Shown here one piece after another: positions 2 through 12,778 of a DNA stretch of 12,778 nt. Where the stretch lies: positions 1-12,778 of the forward strand of contig JAHFUU010000022.1 of NCBI GenBank assembly GCA_023264915.1. The letters are read 5' to 3'. Position 1 is the first letter of the stretch. Every line of letters begins with the position of its first letter. This stretch comes from Microthrixaceae bacterium (GTDB lineage Bacteria; Actinomycetota; Acidimicrobiia; Acidimicrobiales; Acidimicrobilacustridaceae). The notes beneath the pieces are model-generated. The model worked only from the letters and a program-made list of their open reading frames with translations, was not told the DNA's origin and ran no database searches. Made by a program: the position numbers and the translations under genes.

Positions 2-2431
2 ACGGCCCCCGATCACGGCCTCGTGCTCCTCGACGGGGTCGATCTCGTGCGCATGCCCGCAGACGAGCGGGCCCGCCGTGGCGTGGCCCGCTCGTTCCAG
101 GACGCGCGCCTGTATCCCGCGCTCACCGTCGAGGAGACCCTCGCCGTGGCACTCGACCGCTGGCTGCCGGTGAAGTACCCATTCCGTGCAGCAGTCCGCA
201 GCGGGCGTGAGCGCGAGGTCGAGCGCGAGGTCCACGAGAGGGTCGAAGAGCTGGTGGAGCTCCTCGGGCTCGGGCGCTTCAAGACCTCCTTCGTCCATGA
301 GCTGTCGACGGGCACCAGGCGAATCGTCGACCTCGGTTGCGTTCTGGCTCACCACCCGACGGTCGTGCTCTTGGATGAGCCCTCCAGCGGGATCGCCCAG
401 CGTGAGTCCGAGGCATTGGCCCCGCTCTTGCTGCGGGTGCGTGACGTCCTGGGGGCGACGGTGCTCGTGGTCGAGCACGACATGGCCCTCGTCAGCTCCA
501 TAGCGGACCGTCTCGTCGCATTGGACCAGGGCCGTGTCGTGGCACAAGGCCCCCCTCGGGAAGTCCTCGAGCACCCTGCGGTGATCTCGTCCTACCTGGG
601 CGGCCCCGACCCGGTGCTCGATCCCGCGACCGCCAGCGGGTCGCCGGCTGCGGTGGGCGAGGCCACCGGCGGCTCCCTCGCGGCCGATGACGGCGCCGGG
701 GGCAACGACGACCGGCCACCGATGTTGGTCGCCGGGGGCAGCCGCCCACGTTGGCGGACCGCGGCGGCCGCCATAGCCGCTGTGATCGCCGTGATCGCTG
801 TGGTCGTCGTGGGCGGTGCGGGGCGCAACGCGTCCTCTACCTACACACCGACTGTCGCAGAGCGAGCCAAGGTGCCGGCCAAGAGCGTGGTTCCTCCCAT
901 CTACTCCGAGACCCAGGGTGCCCAGCGCGAAGAGACCCCGTGGGTGGACAACTGCGACCCGGCCACTGGGCGCATCAAGATGCCATCGGTCTACGCGCCG
1001 CCCTGTGTCCCCAAGTTCGAGGGGGACAACGGCGGTGCGACGTCGCTGGGCGTCACCTCGGACACGATCAAGCTGGCCGTCTATGAACCCAAGGGCGCCA
1101 ACGATGCTCGGGCACTTCTGGAGAACGTCCTGGACGATCCCAACGCTGTGGCAGAGACCGGCAATCGGTACGTGGACATGTTCAACGACCTCTTCGAGAC
1201 CTACGGCCGCAAGGTCGAGATCGTGAGGTTCCAGGCCTCGGGCAACATGGACGACGAGGTCGCGGCCCGCGCGGATGCCATCAAGCTGGCCACCGAGGTC
1301 AAGCCCTTCGCTTCGATCGGTGGCCCGCCGCTGACGGTTGCCTATGCCGAGGAGCTGGCAACCAGGGGCATCATGTGCATCGAGTGCGGGCTCTCGGACC
1401 CGGACTCGTCCTTCCAGCGCAACGCGCCGTTCATGTGGGGGCCGTTGCCGACCCCCGAGGAGTTCCTCCTGAGCGTGGGGGACTACCTGTTCAACCGGGT
1501 GGTCAAGCGCCCCGCCTCGTTTGCCGGCGACGAGCAGATGCGCAACAAGGAGCGTGTCTTCGGAACCGTGCACTTCGAGCAGAAGGTGCCCGTGTTCGCC
1601 GAGCTCGAGAATCTCGTGAACCAGATCGGTGAGGCCCGCGGGTTCAAGCCGGCGGCGAGCGAGACCTACACCTTCGAGCTCGAGAAGATGCCCGAGCGGG
1701 CCACCACCATCGTCGCCAAGATGAAGCAGGCGGGCGTCACCACCGTCATCTTCCTGGGTGATCCCCTGATGCCCATCTACCTGACCAAGGCAGCCACCGA
1801 GCAGGACTACTACCCCGAATGGATCGTGACCGGCACGGTCCTCACCGACACGACCGTGTTCGGCCGGCGGTACGACCAGGGTCAGTGGCGCCACGCGTTC
1901 GGGCTGTCAGTGCTTCCGGTGCAGACCCGCCACGAGATGGGAGAGGCGTGGCGCATGCACCAGTGGTACTTCGGGAGTCCGCCGGCCGCCGTCAACACGA
2001 GCCAGCTCATCTACCAGGCGATCAACCTGTTCTTCCTGGGCGTGCACCTCGCGGGCGCGAACCTCCGGCCCGAGACGTTCCGCGACGGCTTGTTCCACTA
2101 CCCGGCCTCTGGGGGCGGCCCGACGACTCCACGTATCAGCTTCGGGCACAACGGCTTGTACATCTCCGAGGACCTCGGCAAGCGAACCGACTACCTGGGC
2201 GTGGACGACATGACCGAGATCTGGTGGGACGCCGAAGCGATCGGGCCAGATGAGACCGGCAAGTACGGAACCGGCATGTGGAGATATGCCAACAGCGGTG
2301 TCCGATACCTTCCAGGTGACATGCCCAAGACCGACACCGACGCCTTCCGCAAGGACGGGTCAGTGCTGCTGTACGACCAGCTTCCTGACCGGGATGTCCC
2401 GCCCCAGTACCCCTCGCCCCACAAGGGCTGA
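2..2431 (+). CDS. ABC ATPase fused to membrane-anchored substrate-binding domain (5' partial)
   Basis: The frame is open from the first bases, so the gene starts upstream; Walker A lies outside the window. Numbering from base 2, residues 1-205 are the rest of a LivG-type (branched-chain amino acid class) ABC ATPase: Q-loop FQDARLYPALT near 32-42, signature LSTGTRR near 101-107 (a departure from LSGGQ), Walker B VVLLDEP near 121-127 with its glutamate, and H-loop VEHDM near 157-161. A Gly/Ala/Asp-rich linker follows, then one hydrophobic helix near 251-271 preceded by RPRWR, which predicts cytoplasmic N-side and outside C-side. The remaining ~530 residues resemble a periplasmic-binding-protein fold (SLGVTSDTIKLAVYEP; GVTTVIFLGDP), with cysteine pairs near 318/335 and 459/462. 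The inferred role is import of a small organic solute; the substrate is unknown. The permease is presumably upstream. The GTG at 23 is an internal codon, not a credible start. The family calls are firm; the arrangement is unusual. Confidence 0.88.
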   Translation, partial: TAPDHGLVLLDGVDLVRMPADERARRGVARSFQDARLYPALTVEETLAVALDRWLPVKYPFRAAVRSGREREVEREVHERVEELVELLGLGRFKTSFVHELSTGTRRIVDLGCVLAHHPTVVLLDEPSSGIAQRESEALAPLLLRVRDVLGATVLVVEHDMALVSSIADRLVALDQGRVVAQGPPREVLEHPAVISSYLGGPDPVLDPATASGSPAAVGEATGGSLAADDGAGGNDDRPPMLVAGGSRPRWRTAAAAIAAVIAVIAVVVVGGAGRNASSTYTPTVAERAKVPAKSVVPPIYSETQGAQREETPWVDNCDPATGRIKMPSVYAPPCVPKFEGDNGGATSLGVTSDTIKLAVYEPKGANDARALLENVLDDPNAVAETGNRYVDMFNDLFETYGRKVEIVRFQASGNMDDEVAARADAIKLATEVKPFASIGGPPLTVAYAEELATRGIMCIECGLSDPDSSFQRNAPFMWGPLPTPEEFLLSVGDYLFNRVVKRPASFAGDEQMRNKERVFGTVHFEQKVPVFAELENLVNQIGEARGFKPAASETYTFELEKMPERATTIVAKMKQAGVTTVIFLGDPLMPIYLTKAATEQDYYPEWIVTGTVLTDTTVFGRRYDQGQWRHAFGLSVLPVQTRHEMGEAWRMHQWYFGSPPAAVNTSQLIYQAINLFFLGVHLAGANLRPETFRDGLFHYPASGGGPTTPRISFGHNGLYISEDLGKRTDYLGVDDMTEIWWDAEAIGPDETGKYGTGMWRYANSGVRYLPGDMPKTDTDAFRKDGSVLLYDQLPDRDVPPQYPSPHKG

Positions 2432-6739: not shown

Positions 6740-6985
6740 TCAGGCCTTCGAGCCGGCGGGGCCGGGTTCCTCGCTGCGCATCGTGTCCATGAAGGCGCCA
6801 CCTGCGTTGATGACGGCCTTGCCGACCCGCTTTCCCACCTCGCTGCCCACGGCAGCACCGACGACGCCGCCGACGAAGGGACCGACGATCGGTATCGGGA
6901 TCATGCTTCCAAGTCGGGCACCGCCGATCGCCCCGAGACCGAGACCGGCGAACTTGCCAGCTTCCTCTTTGTCCTTCTCATCCAT
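6740..6985 (-). CDS. Small glycine-zipper protein, paralog 2
   Basis: The product has 81 residues: a charged N-terminus (MDEKDKEEAGK), a long Gly/Ala/Val segment with GxxxG and AxxxG spacing (about 12-55), and a polar tail. GPFVGGVVGAAVGSEVGKR is nearly the same as in the neighbouring gene. Glycine-zipper segments insert in or pack on membranes; the closest general description is the Gly-zipper/2TM type, and no function is known to me. The ATG at 6985 is fixed by a perfect AGGAGG 5 bases upstream; a longer reading from 7078 would be non-coding upstream of that site. It lies 102 bases downstream of its paralog, on the same strand, and converges with the SGNH gene (28 bases between stops). Confidence 0.85.
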   Translation of the reverse strand: MDEKDKEEAGKFAGLGLGAIGGARLGSMIPIPIVGPFVGGVVGAAVGSEVGKRVGKAVINAGGAFMDTMRSEEPGPAGSKA

Positions 6986-6990
6986 TGCTT

Positions 6991-6996
6991 CCTCCT
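6991..6996 (-). promoter_or_regulatory. Ribosome-binding site AGGAGG fixing the start at 6985
   Basis: CCTCCT on the plus strand reads AGGAGG on the minus strand, 5 bases ahead of the ATG. It is the strongest Shine-Dalgarno sequence seen in the window and decides the start of the small gene against the longer open frame. Confidence 0.88.
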
Positions 6997-7009
6997 GTTG
7001 TCGATCTCC

Positions 7010-7083
7010 CACTGCCAGTGCCAGCTGGCCCTGGCGGCGAGAGAGTTGCTGTTGTTCGGGTGGGTGTACACGGCGCATGCGCC
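7010..7083. promoter_or_regulatory. Palindrome-dense spacer between the glycine-zipper paralogs
   Basis: The 102-base spacer contains four perfect palindromes: CACTGCCAGTG (7010-7020), GCCAGCTGGC (7020-7029), GTGTACAC (7064-7071) and GGCGCATGCGCC (7072-7083). The last two abut directly, just past the stop of the upstream paralog. There is no T-tract, so a factor-independent terminator is not supported. They may be binding sites or leader structure for the second gene. Confidence 0.4.
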
Positions 7084-7087
7084 TTCA

Positions 7088-7360
7088 TCACAGATAGAGG
7101 CCTGGTGGATCCTGGTCGGGCTTGGCGGGTGCCAGGGGCAGGTCTTCGCGGATCGATCCGACGAAGGTCTCGCCCGCTCGGAGCAGAGCCTTGCCGAGCC
7201 GCCTCCCGACCTCGCTGCCCACTGCCGCGCCCAGAACACCGCCTACGAAGGGACCGAGAAGCGGCACCGGGATGATCCGGCTGCCGAGGGCCGCCCCACT
7301 GGCGATGCCGGCACCGACACCGACAGCCCGCCCGATGTCCTCGCGTTCCCGATCGTTCAT
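7088..7360 (-). CDS. Small glycine-zipper protein, paralog 1
   Basis: The product has 90 residues: charged MNDREREDIGR, then a Gly/Ala-rich zipper (about 14-55) with GPFVGGVLGAAVGSEVGRR, then KALLRAG and an acidic/proline tail ending PPGLYL. It aligns along its length with the 81-residue product of the next gene, with near-identity across the GPFVGG...GSEVG core, so the pair arose by duplication. The start is chosen at ATG 7360, where GAGAGG ends 6 bases upstream; the in-frame ATG at 7366 directly abuts that site and is too close. The leader forms a 10-bp hairpin ending in the ribosome-binding site. Function is unknown; membrane association is inferred. It is divergent from hisS. Confidence 0.85.
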   Translation of the reverse strand: MNDREREDIGRAVGVGAGIASGAALGSRIIPVPLLGPFVGGVLGAAVGSEVGRRLGKALLRAGETFVGSIREDLPLAPAKPDQDPPGLYL

Positions 7361-7366
7361 GGGCAT

Positions 7367-7403
7367 CCTCTCTTGGCGCGAGCTCCAGTGTGGCGCGCCA
7401 AGA
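7367..7403 (-). promoter_or_regulatory. Leader hairpin abutting the ribosome-binding site of the glycine-zipper gene
   Basis: TCTTGGCGCG (7371-7380) and CGCGCCAAGA (7394-7403) are exact reverse complements, 10 bp, with a 13-base loop. In the minus-strand mRNA the 3' arm ends in AAGA and runs straight into GAGG and the start region, so part of the AAGAGAGG Shine-Dalgarno sequence is inside the stem. This could mask or present the ribosome site. The hairpin is certain by base pairing; a regulatory role is inference. Confidence 0.65.
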
Positions 7404-7552
7404 TGGTGCCGGCTGGTCAGGAACCCACCGACTTCGGTGCCGTTGACCACCCGCCGATCCGAGCTCGCCTGGTTGCTGCACAGAGGATGCCAGCCTCGCC
7501 GGGAACCGGCACGGGTGTTTTCACCCACTCGTTGGTGGGGGCCCCTCGCCGC

Positions 7553-7558
7553 TAACCT
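7553..7558 (+). promoter_or_regulatory. -10 hexamer TAACCT for leaderless hisS transcription
   Basis: TAACCT (TANNNT type) ends 8 bases before the hisS GTG, which lacks a Shine-Dalgarno sequence. TTGGTG at 7532-7537 is a possible -35 at a short 15-base spacing. The arrangement is the same as at rel and rarA. Confidence 0.55.
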
Positions 7559-7566
7559 CCCCGGGC

Positions 7567-8937
7567 GTGCCTTCTGGGATCCCCGAGCAGCGAACCGAGC
7601 GACCTTCTGAGGATCAAGCGCCCGCCCAGACCGGCGCGCAGCCTGCCGGTGCCAGCAGGTCAAGACCCGATCGGTTCCGGGCACCGAAAGGGACCCGGGA
7701 CATCGTGCCGCCCGAGTCCTCCCGTTGGGAAGCCCTGGTCGTTCGCTTCGCCACGTTGGTCGAGCGTGCCGGATACGGGTTGATCTGCGGGCCGATGTTC
7801 GAGGACATCGGGGTGTTCGAGCGGATGGGTGAGGGGACCGACGTCGTCCGCAAGGAGATGTATGACTTCTACGACAAGGACCCCTCCAACCCTCAGCGCC
7901 TGGCGCTGCGCCCCGAGGGAACCGCAGGGGTTGCTCGCGCATTCGTCGAGCACCGCCCCGCCACCCTCCCATGGAAGGTGTGGTACGTCGCGCCCAACTT
8001 CCGCTACGAGAGCCCCCAGGCACACCGGTACCGCCAGCACCACCAGGTCGGCATCGAGGCGATCGGGTCGCCGGATCCGGACCTCGACGTCGAGGCGATG
8101 GTGCTGCTCCACGACCTGTATGCCGCTGTCGGCCTGCGACAGGTCGAGCTCGTCATCAACAGCGTCGGCACCGTGGCTGATCGACGGTCCTACGCCTCTG
8201 AGCTGAGGTCCTTCCTCACCACCCACAAGGGAGACCTCGACCCAGAAGATCAGGAGAAGGTCGACCGGCACCCGATGCGCGTGCTCGACACCAAGCGGGC
8301 CGCGAGCCTGGCCGTCGTGACAGCGGCGCCGCAGCTGCCCGATCACCTCTCGGCCGACGCGGCCGCTCGCTTCGGGCAGGTCAAGAACGGCCTCACGGCT
8401 GCGGGAGTGGCCTTTGTGGTCGATCCACGCCTCGTGCGTGGCCTTGACTACTACACCCACACTGCCTTCGAGTTCCAGAGCCAGGCGATCGGCGGGGCCA
8501 AGAGCACCATCGGCGGAGGCGGCCGCTATGACGGGTTGATCGAGTCGCTGGGGGGACCGCCGACTCCCGGCGTCGGGTTCGGGTGTGGCATCGAGCGCAC
8601 GCTGGCAGCCTGTGACGCCGAGGAGGCCTTCCCGGCACCACCGAACCCTCTCGACGCCTACGTGATCGACCTCACCGGCGGCGGCGCTGCTCGGGACCTG
8701 TGCACCGATCTTCGTCGTGCCGGGTTGAGTGCAGACCGCGGCTTCGACCAGCGGTCGATGAAGAGCCAGATCAAGTCAGCTGGCCGTTCCACGGCCCGCT
8801 TCGCCGTCATCGTGGGGCCTGACGAGCTTTCTGAAGGCGTCGTGACAGTGCGCGATCTGCGCAACGATGCCGCCCAGGTGTCAGTCGCGCGGTCAGATCT
8901 CATCAGCTACCTGCTCGCGGCCACAGCCGGCGAGTGA
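7567..8937 (+). CDS. hisS: Histidyl-tRNA synthetase
   Basis: This 456-residue class II enzyme charges tRNA-His with histidine in the cytosol. It has a non-conserved N-terminal extension of about 36 residues, then FRAPKGTRDIVPPE (37-50) and the HisRS LRPEGTAGVARAF segment (114-126). Motif 2 is FRYESPQAHRYRQHHQ (145-160), the histidine-specific loop LVRGLDYYTHTAFEF is near 288-302, GGGGRYDGL follows, and motif 3 is GVGFGCGIER. The C-terminal anticodon-binding domain contains DQRSMKSQIKSA. The motif 2 arginine (fRxE) is kept, but the usual RPQ-x-G is SPQ-A-H here (S149, H153). The GTG start at 7567 has no Shine-Dalgarno sequence but has a TAACCT -10 8 bases upstream, and no nearer credible start exists. 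aspS follows after 28 bases. Confidence 0.97.
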   Translation: MPSGIPEQRTERPSEDQAPAQTGAQPAGASRSRPDRFRAPKGTRDIVPPESSRWEALVVRFATLVERAGYGLICGPMFEDIGVFERMGEGTDVVRKEMYDFYDKDPSNPQRLALRPEGTAGVARAFVEHRPATLPWKVWYVAPNFRYESPQAHRYRQHHQVGIEAIGSPDPDLDVEAMVLLHDLYAAVGLRQVELVINSVGTVADRRSYASELRSFLTTHKGDLDPEDQEKVDRHPMRVLDTKRAASLAVVTAAPQLPDHLSADAAARFGQVKNGLTAAGVAFVVDPRLVRGLDYYTHTAFEFQSQAIGGAKSTIGGGGRYDGLIESLGGPPTPGVGFGCGIERTLAACDAEEAFPAPPNPLDAYVIDLTGGGAARDLCTDLRRAGLSADRGFDQRSMKSQIKSAGRSTARFAVIVGPDELSEGVVTVRDLRNDAAQVSVARSDLISYLLAATAGE

Positions 8938-8965: not shown

Positions 8966-10726
8966 GTGACCCACAACCCCAATGCCATCACCGCTCTCCG
9001 TAGCGACCTCGCAGGCGAGCTGCGAGCTGACGACCAAGGTAGGCGGGTCGCCGTGTGCGGATGGATCAACGCTCGAAGGGAGCACAGCCAGCACCTCGCG
9101 TTCATCGATGTGCGGGATCACACGGGCGTCGTGCAGTGCGTGGTGGACAACGCGCACGACCTGCGCAGCGAGTACGTCGTGCGGGTGCAGGCCACGGTGA
9201 CCAGACGAGCTGCCGAGACGGTCAATCCCAACCTGGCAACCGGCGAGATCGAGCTCAAGGACTGCGAGGTGGAGGTGCTGGCCCGGTCTGACCCACCGCC
9301 GATCCAGATCGACGCGCGCGCCGGAGTCGACGAGAACCATCGCCTCCGCTACCGCTACATCGACCTCCGATCCGAGCGAATGCAACGCAACCTCCGCGCG
9401 CGGGCGCTGGTGAACAGCGCTCTCCGTGCCGCCATGCAGCGGCAGGGCTTCGTCGAGGTCGAGACACCCTTCTTGATCGCTTCGACCCCCGAGGGCGCAC
9501 GCGACTTCGTCGTGCCTTCCCGCCACAGCCCCGGCCAGTTCTACGCGCTTCCTCAAAGCCCCCAGCTGTTCAAGCAGCTCGCGATGGTCGGCGGGATCGA
9601 CCGCTACTACCAGATCGCTCGGTGCTTGCGCGACGAGGACCTACGAGCGGATCGCCAGTTCGAGTTCACCCAGCTCGATGCCGAAGCCAGCTTCGTCTCC
9701 CAAGATGACGTCCTCGCATTCATCACCGAAGCCGTCGGTGACGCGACCGAGGTGGTGACCAGTGAACGCACGGGTGAGATCCCGCGCCTCACCTGGCTCG
9801 AAGCGATGGAGCGGTTCGGATCTGACAAGCCAGACATCCGGTTCGGCATGGAGCTGTGCGATCTGACCGAGGTGTTCGCCACGACCGACTTCAACGCCTT
9901 CAAGGCGCCGTCGGTCAAGGGCATCTGTGAACCGGCCGGCGCGACCAAGACCCGCAAGCAGCTCGACGAGCTCACCGACAAGGCCAAGCAATGGGGAGCC
10001 AAAGGCCTTGTGTGGATGAAGGTCGAGCCCGATCTCAGCCTGACCTCACCAGTGGCCAAGTTCCTCCGCGACGACGAGAAGCAGGCCCTGGTCGCCAGGT
10101 TGGGAGCCGAACCGGGTGATCTCGTGCTCGTCGTGGCCGACGAGTTGGCGAGGGCCCGCCACGTCCTGGGGCTCCTCCGGCTCGAGCTGGGGCGACCGGC
10201 GGTGAACGAGGGGAGCCTGTCCTTCCTCTGGGTCGTCGACTTCCCCCTCTTTGAAGGTCTCGACGAGACCGGGGCACCGATCCCCGCACACCATCCGTTC
10301 ACGATGCCCAACATGGCAGACCTCGAACTGCTCGACTCCGCTGAGCCCGGGGTGTTGCTGAAGGTGCGATCCCAGGCCTATGACCTCACCCTGAACGGCT
10401 GGGAGCTCGGCTCGGGCAGCGTCCGGATCCACCGTCCAGACATCCAGCGCAAGATCTTCGACCTGTTGGGGATCACACCCGAAGAGGCGAGGCAGAAGTT
10501 CGGGTTCCTGCTGGACGCGTTCGGGTACGGAGCACCTCCCCATGCTGGGTTCGCGTTCGGGATCGACCGGTTGGTAGCGCTCCTGGTGGGCGAGGAGAAC
10601 ATCCGCGAGGTGATCGCCTTCCCCAAGACCCAGTCCGGTGCGGACCCGCTCACAGGCGCGCCCACCGCGATCGATCCCCGCCACCTCGACGAGCTCGGGT
10701 TGCGCCTGTCGCCCGATCCCCGATAG
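8966..10726 (+). CDS. aspS: Aspartyl-tRNA synthetase, bacterial type
   Basis: This 586-residue class IIb synthetase charges tRNA-Asp. It has an N-terminal OB-fold anticodon domain (about 1-135: VAVCGWINARRE, FIDVRDHTGVVQ). The class II core carries motif 1 (FVEVETPFL), the TPEGARDFVVPSR flipping-loop region, SPQLFKQLAM, and motif 2 (YYQIARCLRDEDLRADRQ, then FTQLD). The bacterial GAD insertion spans roughly 290-410 (SVKGICEPAG, GAKGLVWMKV). The C-terminal core has GAPPHAGFAFGIDR (motif 3) and REVIAFPKTQSGADPLTGAP. His40 follows RRE in the OB fold, as in non-discriminating AspRS enzymes that also charge tRNA-Asn, rather than the Leu of E. coli. The GTG start is set by AAGGA. It probably forms an operon with hisS, and its TAG stop lies 9 bases from the stop of the convergent gene. 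Confidence 0.97.
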   Translation: MTHNPNAITALRSDLAGELRADDQGRRVAVCGWINARREHSQHLAFIDVRDHTGVVQCVVDNAHDLRSEYVVRVQATVTRRAAETVNPNLATGEIELKDCEVEVLARSDPPPIQIDARAGVDENHRLRYRYIDLRSERMQRNLRARALVNSALRAAMQRQGFVEVETPFLIASTPEGARDFVVPSRHSPGQFYALPQSPQLFKQLAMVGGIDRYYQIARCLRDEDLRADRQFEFTQLDAEASFVSQDDVLAFITEAVGDATEVVTSERTGEIPRLTWLEAMERFGSDKPDIRFGMELCDLTEVFATTDFNAFKAPSVKGICEPAGATKTRKQLDELTDKAKQWGAKGLVWMKVEPDLSLTSPVAKFLRDDEKQALVARLGAEPGDLVLVVADELARARHVLGLLRLELGRPAVNEGSLSFLWVVDFPLFEGLDETGAPIPAHHPFTMPNMADLELLDSAEPGVLLKVRSQAYDLTLNGWELGSGSVRIHRPDIQRKIFDLLGITPEEARQKFGFLLDAFGYGAPPHAGFAFGIDRLVALLVGEENIREVIAFPKTQSGADPLTGAPTAIDPRHLDELGLRLSPDPR

Positions 10727-11677: not shown

Positions 11678-12712
11678 GTGCCTGGGGACCTGTTCTCATC
11701 TGCCAGCGATGACCAGCTGGCGCGACGCGGGCCGCTCGCTGCGCGGTTGAGGCCCGCCACCCTCGACGAGGTCTTGGGGCAGGAGCACCTTCTCGCCCCC
11801 GGAAGGCCCCTGCGCACGTTGATCGACACGGACCGGTTGTCATCGGTCGTGCTCTGGGGGCCTCCGGGCACGGGCAAGACCAGCATCGCTTCACTCATCG
11901 CAGCCACGACAGCCAAGGCCTTCGTCAAGCTGTCAGCGGTGTCGGCCACTGTCAAAGATGTCCGCGAGGTCGTTGCGGCCGCCGAGGAGAGGCTCGGACA
12001 GCACCAGAGGCAGACGATCCTGTTCCTCGACGAGGTGCACCGCTTCAACAAGGCGCAGCAAGACGCGTTGCTTCCCTCTGTCGAGTCCGGCCTGCTGGTC
12101 CTGATCGGGGCCACGACAGAGAACCCCTTCTTCGAGCTGAACCCCCCCTTGATGTCGCGCTCGACCTTGCTGCGGCTCGAACCCCTCCCCGCGAGGTCGC
12201 TGCTGGCGCTGCTGCGCCGAGGGCTCGACGCCGAGGGGGCGAGAGCGGACGATGACGCCCTGGAGCTCCTCGCAACGAGGTCTGGCGGTGACGGCCGTCA
12301 GGCGCTGACGAGTCTCGAGGTCGCCGTCGCGCTGGCCGAGGCCAACCGGACCGAGCCTGGGGCCGTGGCGCGGGTCACGACCTCCGAGGCAGAGGCTGCG
12401 CTTGGTACCAGGGCCATCCGGTATGGACGTGACGACCACTATGACGTGGTCTCGGCGTTCATCAAGAGCATCCGGGGCGGTGATGCCGACGCCGGCCTGT
12501 ACTGGCTGGCGCGCATGCTCGAAGCTGGTGAGGACCCGCGCTTCATCGTCAGGCGACTCGTGGTCCTGGCCTCAGAGGACGTGGGCATGGCCGACCCGAT
12601 GGCTCTGGTCGTCGCGCGTGCTGCTGCCGGGGCCCTGGAGCTCGTCGGCCTTCCTGAAGCCCAGCTGAACCTGGCCCAAGCAGTCGTGTACCTGTCCTGC
12701 GCGCCGAAGTAG
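11678..12712 (+). CDS. rarA: Replication-associated recombination ATPase RarA/MgsA, ended early by TAG
   Basis: RarA is a clamp-loader-like AAA+ ATPase acting at stalled replication forks. The 344 residues read here open with MPGDLFSSASDDQ and PLAARLRPATLDEVLGQEHLL. They carry Walker A GPPGTGKT (61-68), the SAVSATVKDVREVV segment, Walker B ILFLDEVHRFNKAQQD (114-129), sensor 1 GATTENPFFELN (144-155), and the C-terminal oligomerisation region (YDVVSAFIKSIRG, ASEDVGMADP, LAQAVVYLSCAPK). Family members usually exceed 400 residues. Here TAG (12710-12712) falls just after APK, where the family normally has Ser-Asn (APKSN), and RarA-like coding continues in frame beyond it. The AAA+ core is intact but the C-terminal part is lost unless the stop is bypassed. 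The GTG start follows TAGCCT by 7 bases. It could be a fresh pseudogene or a sequence error. Confidence 0.9.
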   Translation: MPGDLFSSASDDQLARRGPLAARLRPATLDEVLGQEHLLAPGRPLRTLIDTDRLSSVVLWGPPGTGKTSIASLIAATTAKAFVKLSAVSATVKDVREVVAAAEERLGQHQRQTILFLDEVHRFNKAQQDALLPSVESGLLVLIGATTENPFFELNPPLMSRSTLLRLEPLPARSLLALLRRGLDAEGARADDDALELLATRSGGDGRQALTSLEVAVALAEANRTEPGAVARVTTSEAEAALGTRAIRYGRDDHYDVVSAFIKSIRGGDADAGLYWLARMLEAGEDPRFIVRRLVVLASEDVGMADPMALVVARAAAGALELVGLPEAQLNLAQAVVYLSCAPK

Positions 12713-12778
12713 AACCGGGTCGCGTCGGGCATCTGGCGCGCACGCGACGACGTGCGGAACGGGGGAGGGGGCGAGGTG
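12713..12778 (+). pseudogene. rarA: In-frame continuation of rarA beyond the TAG codon (partial at window end)
   Basis: Reading on in the rarA frame after TAG gives 22 open codons, NRVASGIWRARDDVRNGGGG then EV, up to the last base. This fits the RarA C-terminal pattern of APKSN, then a helix ending in a DVR motif and GEVP. A single base change (TCG to TAG) in the serine codon would explain the interruption. No new start codon with a ribosome site is seen before the edge. Confidence 0.7.

Follow-up and report, generated by a model that had tools for sequence, protein, structure and literature searches.

The in-frame TAG at positions 12710-12712 of the forward strand, which interrupts rarA at a conserved serine, most likely reflects an erroneous base at a metagenome contig edge. 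The window, by which we mean the whole stretch of DNA that was analysed, is the entire contig C409 (12,778 bases) of a 577-contig assembly, and the genome to which it belongs (G000) is estimated to be 72% complete. Since the window is the whole contig, position 12778 is the contig end and the stop sits 66 nt from an assembly edge, which is the nearness to an edge that an error of contig-end assembly calls for. The chance that a random position falls this close to either end is about 1% (2 x 68 / 12,778). The final bases of C409 are G-rich and the contig breaks off within this G-rich stretch. Within the assembly itself no contig was found that overlaps the C409 end, the last 139 nt matching only themselves at useful length. 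The alaS gene was considered as a possible neighbour of this end; it sits on contig C547 and was of no help.

The apparent rarA ORF (replication-associated recombination protein A, or MgsA) runs from the GTG at 11678 to the TAG (11678-12712, forward strand) and encodes 344 aa, an assignment made from Pfam, from the nearest database proteins and from the extent of P0001, the database copy of the window's protein, which has 344 aa and APK as its last residues. Translation of the frame opening at the GTG confirmed the in-frame TAG that had been claimed by the sequence-only reading: up to the stop the frame ends in ...VVYLSCAPK, afterwards it continues as NRVASGIWRARDDVRNGGGGEV to the last base, so that positions 12704-12778 translate as PK, the stop and NRVASGIWRARDDVRNGGGGEV. 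A Pfam scan of 11681-12709 found AAA, AAA_assoc_2 and MgsA_C in that order before the TAG, and this AAA+ ATPase core accompanied by AAA_assoc_2 and MgsA_C places the product in the RarA/MgsA family. In the same scan, MgsA_C covered profile positions 1-78 of 167 before the stop (116.9 bits). When the genome was searched with MgsA_C, the match crossed the stop ("1 TAG" being counted inside it) and reached position 100 of 167, where the contig ends, with 138.5 bits; the two scores come from different kinds of search and are only roughly comparable. The same reading had also claimed RarA-like sequence for 22 codons past the stop (12713-12778, forward strand, ended by the contig end), and the continuation of the MgsA_C match bears this out. 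Judged by its similarity, this tail is a continuation of the same protein, RarA-like beyond chance, and it closely resembles the tail of the same-genus relative, NRVALGIWQARDDVRKEGGGEV.

Other frames of the window showed features of their own. An open frame of 809 codons at 2-2431 (forward strand) starts as a LivG/UrtD-like branched-chain ABC ATPase and goes on for about 500 further residues past a hydrophobic segment, this second part having no Pfam match at 1e-3; the frame possibly combines an ATPase with a substrate-binding-like part. A similar glycine/alanine-rich stretch (GPFVGGVVGAAVGSEVGKRVGKA and GPFVGGVLGAAVGSEVGRRLGKA) occurs in two neighbouring frames of the reverse strand, at 6740-7078 and in the low-coordinate part of 7088-8023, and the two frames are probably tandem paralogues.

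The sister-genome comparison that the sequence-only reading had proposed was carried out for the codon at the site. A search of 40 relatives gave loci in 29 (one of the same genus, the rest of the same family or the same order), 11 giving no locus, and in all 29 the codon encodes Ser (TCG in 21, TCC in six and AGC in two), with no stop. Homologous proteins agree with this: 120 were listed of 8,000 scored, one of which is the window's own, and the other 119 all have Ser at the site, in 116 cases within PKSN and in three within ASKSN, APKSG or AAKSN. The earlier proposal that Ser is the family residue replaced by the stop thus stands at both levels. One listed protein, P0014 (366 aa), ends 20 residues past the serine and looks like a fragment. 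Loci from species genomes were considered as the best 80 of 580, some of which may duplicate relatives' contigs already counted (L180 seems to). In this set 76 were resolved, comprising 74 Ser codons, one AAC and one CGG, the last of which may be a pattern mismatch, and four were unresolved; no stop was found at the site among the 76. As Ser occupies the site throughout relatives and homologues, a naturally shorter family is excluded, and a natural gene end at the TAG was rejected, since the 29 relatives' loci and the 119 listed proteins carry Ser and go on.

The nearest listed proteins are 77-78% identical to the rarA product, and one of them is named replication-associated recombination protein A. 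No same-species sequence was found: protein identity reached at most 78% among the 120 proteins listed of 8,000 scored and at most 74% among the species-genome contigs (best 80 of 580), a search that may leave out the window's own genome. An independent copy of the TAG allele was found neither among the relatives' loci nor among the listed proteins or the resolved species-genome loci.

Domain families were then used as frame-aware probes for the background rate of in-frame stops, in searches that read through stops and count them; matches were limited to an E-value of 1e-10 or 1e-8, weaker ones falling outside the count. G000 gave 116 matches (53 ABC_tran, 21 AMP-binding, 30 adh_short and 12 Bac_luciferase) covering 67,389 bases. 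The only in-frame stop in them is a TGA at C555:3092-3094 (L039); it falls inside an AMP-binding (acyl-CoA synthetase-like) frame, on a contig 3,143 nt long whose end is 49 nt away, and no in-frame stop away from a contig end was found in the 116 matches. The same four-family searches in the same-genus genome G001 gave 133 matches (44, 26, 39 and 24, respectively) and zero stops.

Programmed or suppressor-mediated amber read-through, or recoding of UAG, would restore a full-length RarA and would fit a frame that is open and homologous past the stop; we regard it as very improbable. Even less credence is given to a real amber codon at the conserved RarA serine that is partly read through, with truncated and full-length RarA both being made. 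The aspS gene of the window ends, as had been supposed before, in an ordinary TAG at 10724-10726 (forward strand), with the aspS profile matched almost to its end (582 of 586); zero TAG codons lie inside any of the 116 domain matches of G000; and none of the relatives examined carries a stop at the rarA codon. ARAGORN found 21 distinct tRNA genes in G000, none of them with a CUA anticodon (the entry "tag" in its output denotes a tRNA-Leu that reads codon CUA), in a genome that is only 72% complete. Against recoding stands also an RF1-like C-terminal piece at the end of contig C360 (L038; C360:4335-4544 of 4,547 nt), which the prfA profile matched over about 70 profile positions with 90.3 bits, below the curated cut-off. 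This piece seems to be an RF1 gene cut by the contig end, and the frame after it is one that we take to resemble prmC. The prfA profile also matched one full-length relative in G000, below the cut-off, which is probably RF2. In G001 (71% complete) no RF1 over the cut-off was found, an absence taken as incompleteness because the 133 domain matches of that genome hold no stop. With incomplete genomes such absences of RF1 or tRNA genes are weak; added to the lack of in-domain TAG codons, they leave recoding little scope. Amber recoding was accordingly set aside as unlikely on the aspS stop, the 116 domain matches, the RF1-like piece and the lack of a CUA tRNA, and the first two of these uphold the earlier judgement that general recoding is unlikely.

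The two known stops in conserved domains of the assembly, in rarA and on C555, are both less than 70 nt from a contig end and both fall inside their domains (MgsA_C at 78 of 167 and AMP-binding at 101 of 384). The C555 stop is a single case, and rarA is no independent sample for the rate of stops at ends, since it was rarA that raised the question. Among the 116 matches, at least 18 come to within 100 nt of a contig end and are free of stops: nine begin less than 100 nt from a contig start and nine more end less than 100 nt from the far end, this second count being limited to contigs of known length. One of at least 19 end-reaching matches therefore carries a stop. With at least 18 clean cases the ends are not uniformly bad, and most of them in this assembly can be taken as sound.

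A codon-model survey of stops near contig ends was made on 121 contigs including the window; 21 were all N, which left 100 contigs with 684,858 bases in total. Sampling was not random: 20 contigs had been picked for domain or RF1 matches, and 100 were every fourth contig up to number 402. Stops were counted when they had at least 150 open codons before them, with the last 40 coding-like, and at least 48 nt to the contig end ahead. Four such stops lie 48-100 nt from an end, and at a threshold of 0.1 two of them (rarA and AMP-binding) are followed by coding-like sequence in frame, versus 26 of 232 farther in, which makes 28 of 236 over all distances. At thresholds of 0.25 and 0.35 only rarA counts, giving one of four near ends versus 13 and 8 of 232, respectively, farther in. 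Seven survey stops are less than 200 nt from an end. The rarA and AMP-binding frames among them stop inside their domains, while those of Ppx/GppA, ABC_tran, response-regulator and enoyl-CoA hydratase reach, or nearly reach, the end of a family profile or domain before they stop, and the seventh is a frame without a family.

A genuine nonsense allele of recent origin, carried by the sampled strain or by a sub-population, would amount to the ordinary decay of a dispensable gene; it is possible and in our judgement rather unlikely. RarA would then end at 344 aa inside MgsA_C, with roughly the second half of this domain lost, and to go by the sequence it would probably be impaired or non-functional. 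The base that makes the TAG does stand in the consensus, the similarity of the tail is unweakened, as fits a very recent event, and the clean end-reaching matches speak for contig ends that can mostly be trusted. In E. coli most of rarA has been deleted, according to PMC8735627, which reports a growth defect of the rarA deletion when ruvB or ruvC is also deleted; the viability of the single deletion would follow from this. The same paper says that E. coli RarA works as a tetramer. With RarA acting as a tetramer and most of its gene open to deletion in E. coli, the allele would simply mean that function was recently lost or impaired. Against it, a genuine allele would have to lie so near the contig edge by a coincidence of about 1%, in a genome where the 116 domain matches hold no in-frame stop away from contig ends, and it is shared by none of the 29 relatives' loci and none of the 119 listed proteins.

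A recent nonsense mutation, a sequencing or assembly error and read-through were the three options named at the outset, and they proved to be the right ones to weigh. The accompanying idea of a lineage that has lost the C-terminal part of RarA found no such support: its basis is a single base of a single assembly, the contig breaks off short of the C-terminus, and the one in-frame stop that the 116 domain matches contain is itself 49 nt from a contig end.

The preferred reading, a base error at the contig edge, builds on a stop 66 nt from the edge, a conserved codon, a homologous tail and a second in-frame stop close to a contig end. The wrong base itself, the short-read nature of the data and thin coverage as the cause would have to be supposed in addition. 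Few reads may support the consensus at a contig edge, so that one erroneous base could stay uncorrected there. Going from TCG, the commonest codon of the relatives, to TAG would take a single C-to-A transversion. Such transversions are a familiar error type in sequencing libraries. The rarA gene of the organism would then encode Ser like that of its relatives and run on past the contig edge.

Under the error or the allele reading alike the finding is an ordinary one. A real allele would be a further example of a recent loss-of-function mutation in a repair gene. The case serves mainly as a caution: where a gene seems truncated within about 100 nt of the end of a metagenome contig, gene loss should not be concluded before the reads have been seen. 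Base errors at contig ends are a recognized matter in short-read assembly, and SOAPdenovo cuts k bases off its contig ends to keep erroneous bases out, as stated in PMC4252104. The present case differs in that the error is inferred from assembled sequence; it is similar in having one wrong-looking base less than 70 nt from an edge, with C555 as a second case.

RarA/MgsA proteins are homologues of yeast Mgs1 and human WRNIP1. Like other members of this family, the window's protein has AAA, AAA_assoc_2 and MgsA_C in order and shows 77-78% identity to the nearest listed proteins; unlike them, its frame is broken by a TAG at the conserved serine and the contig is over 66 nt later. E. coli RarA (structure 3pvs) aligns with residues 18-429 of the 452 of P0003, the closest named relative, and has the same serine in APKSN.
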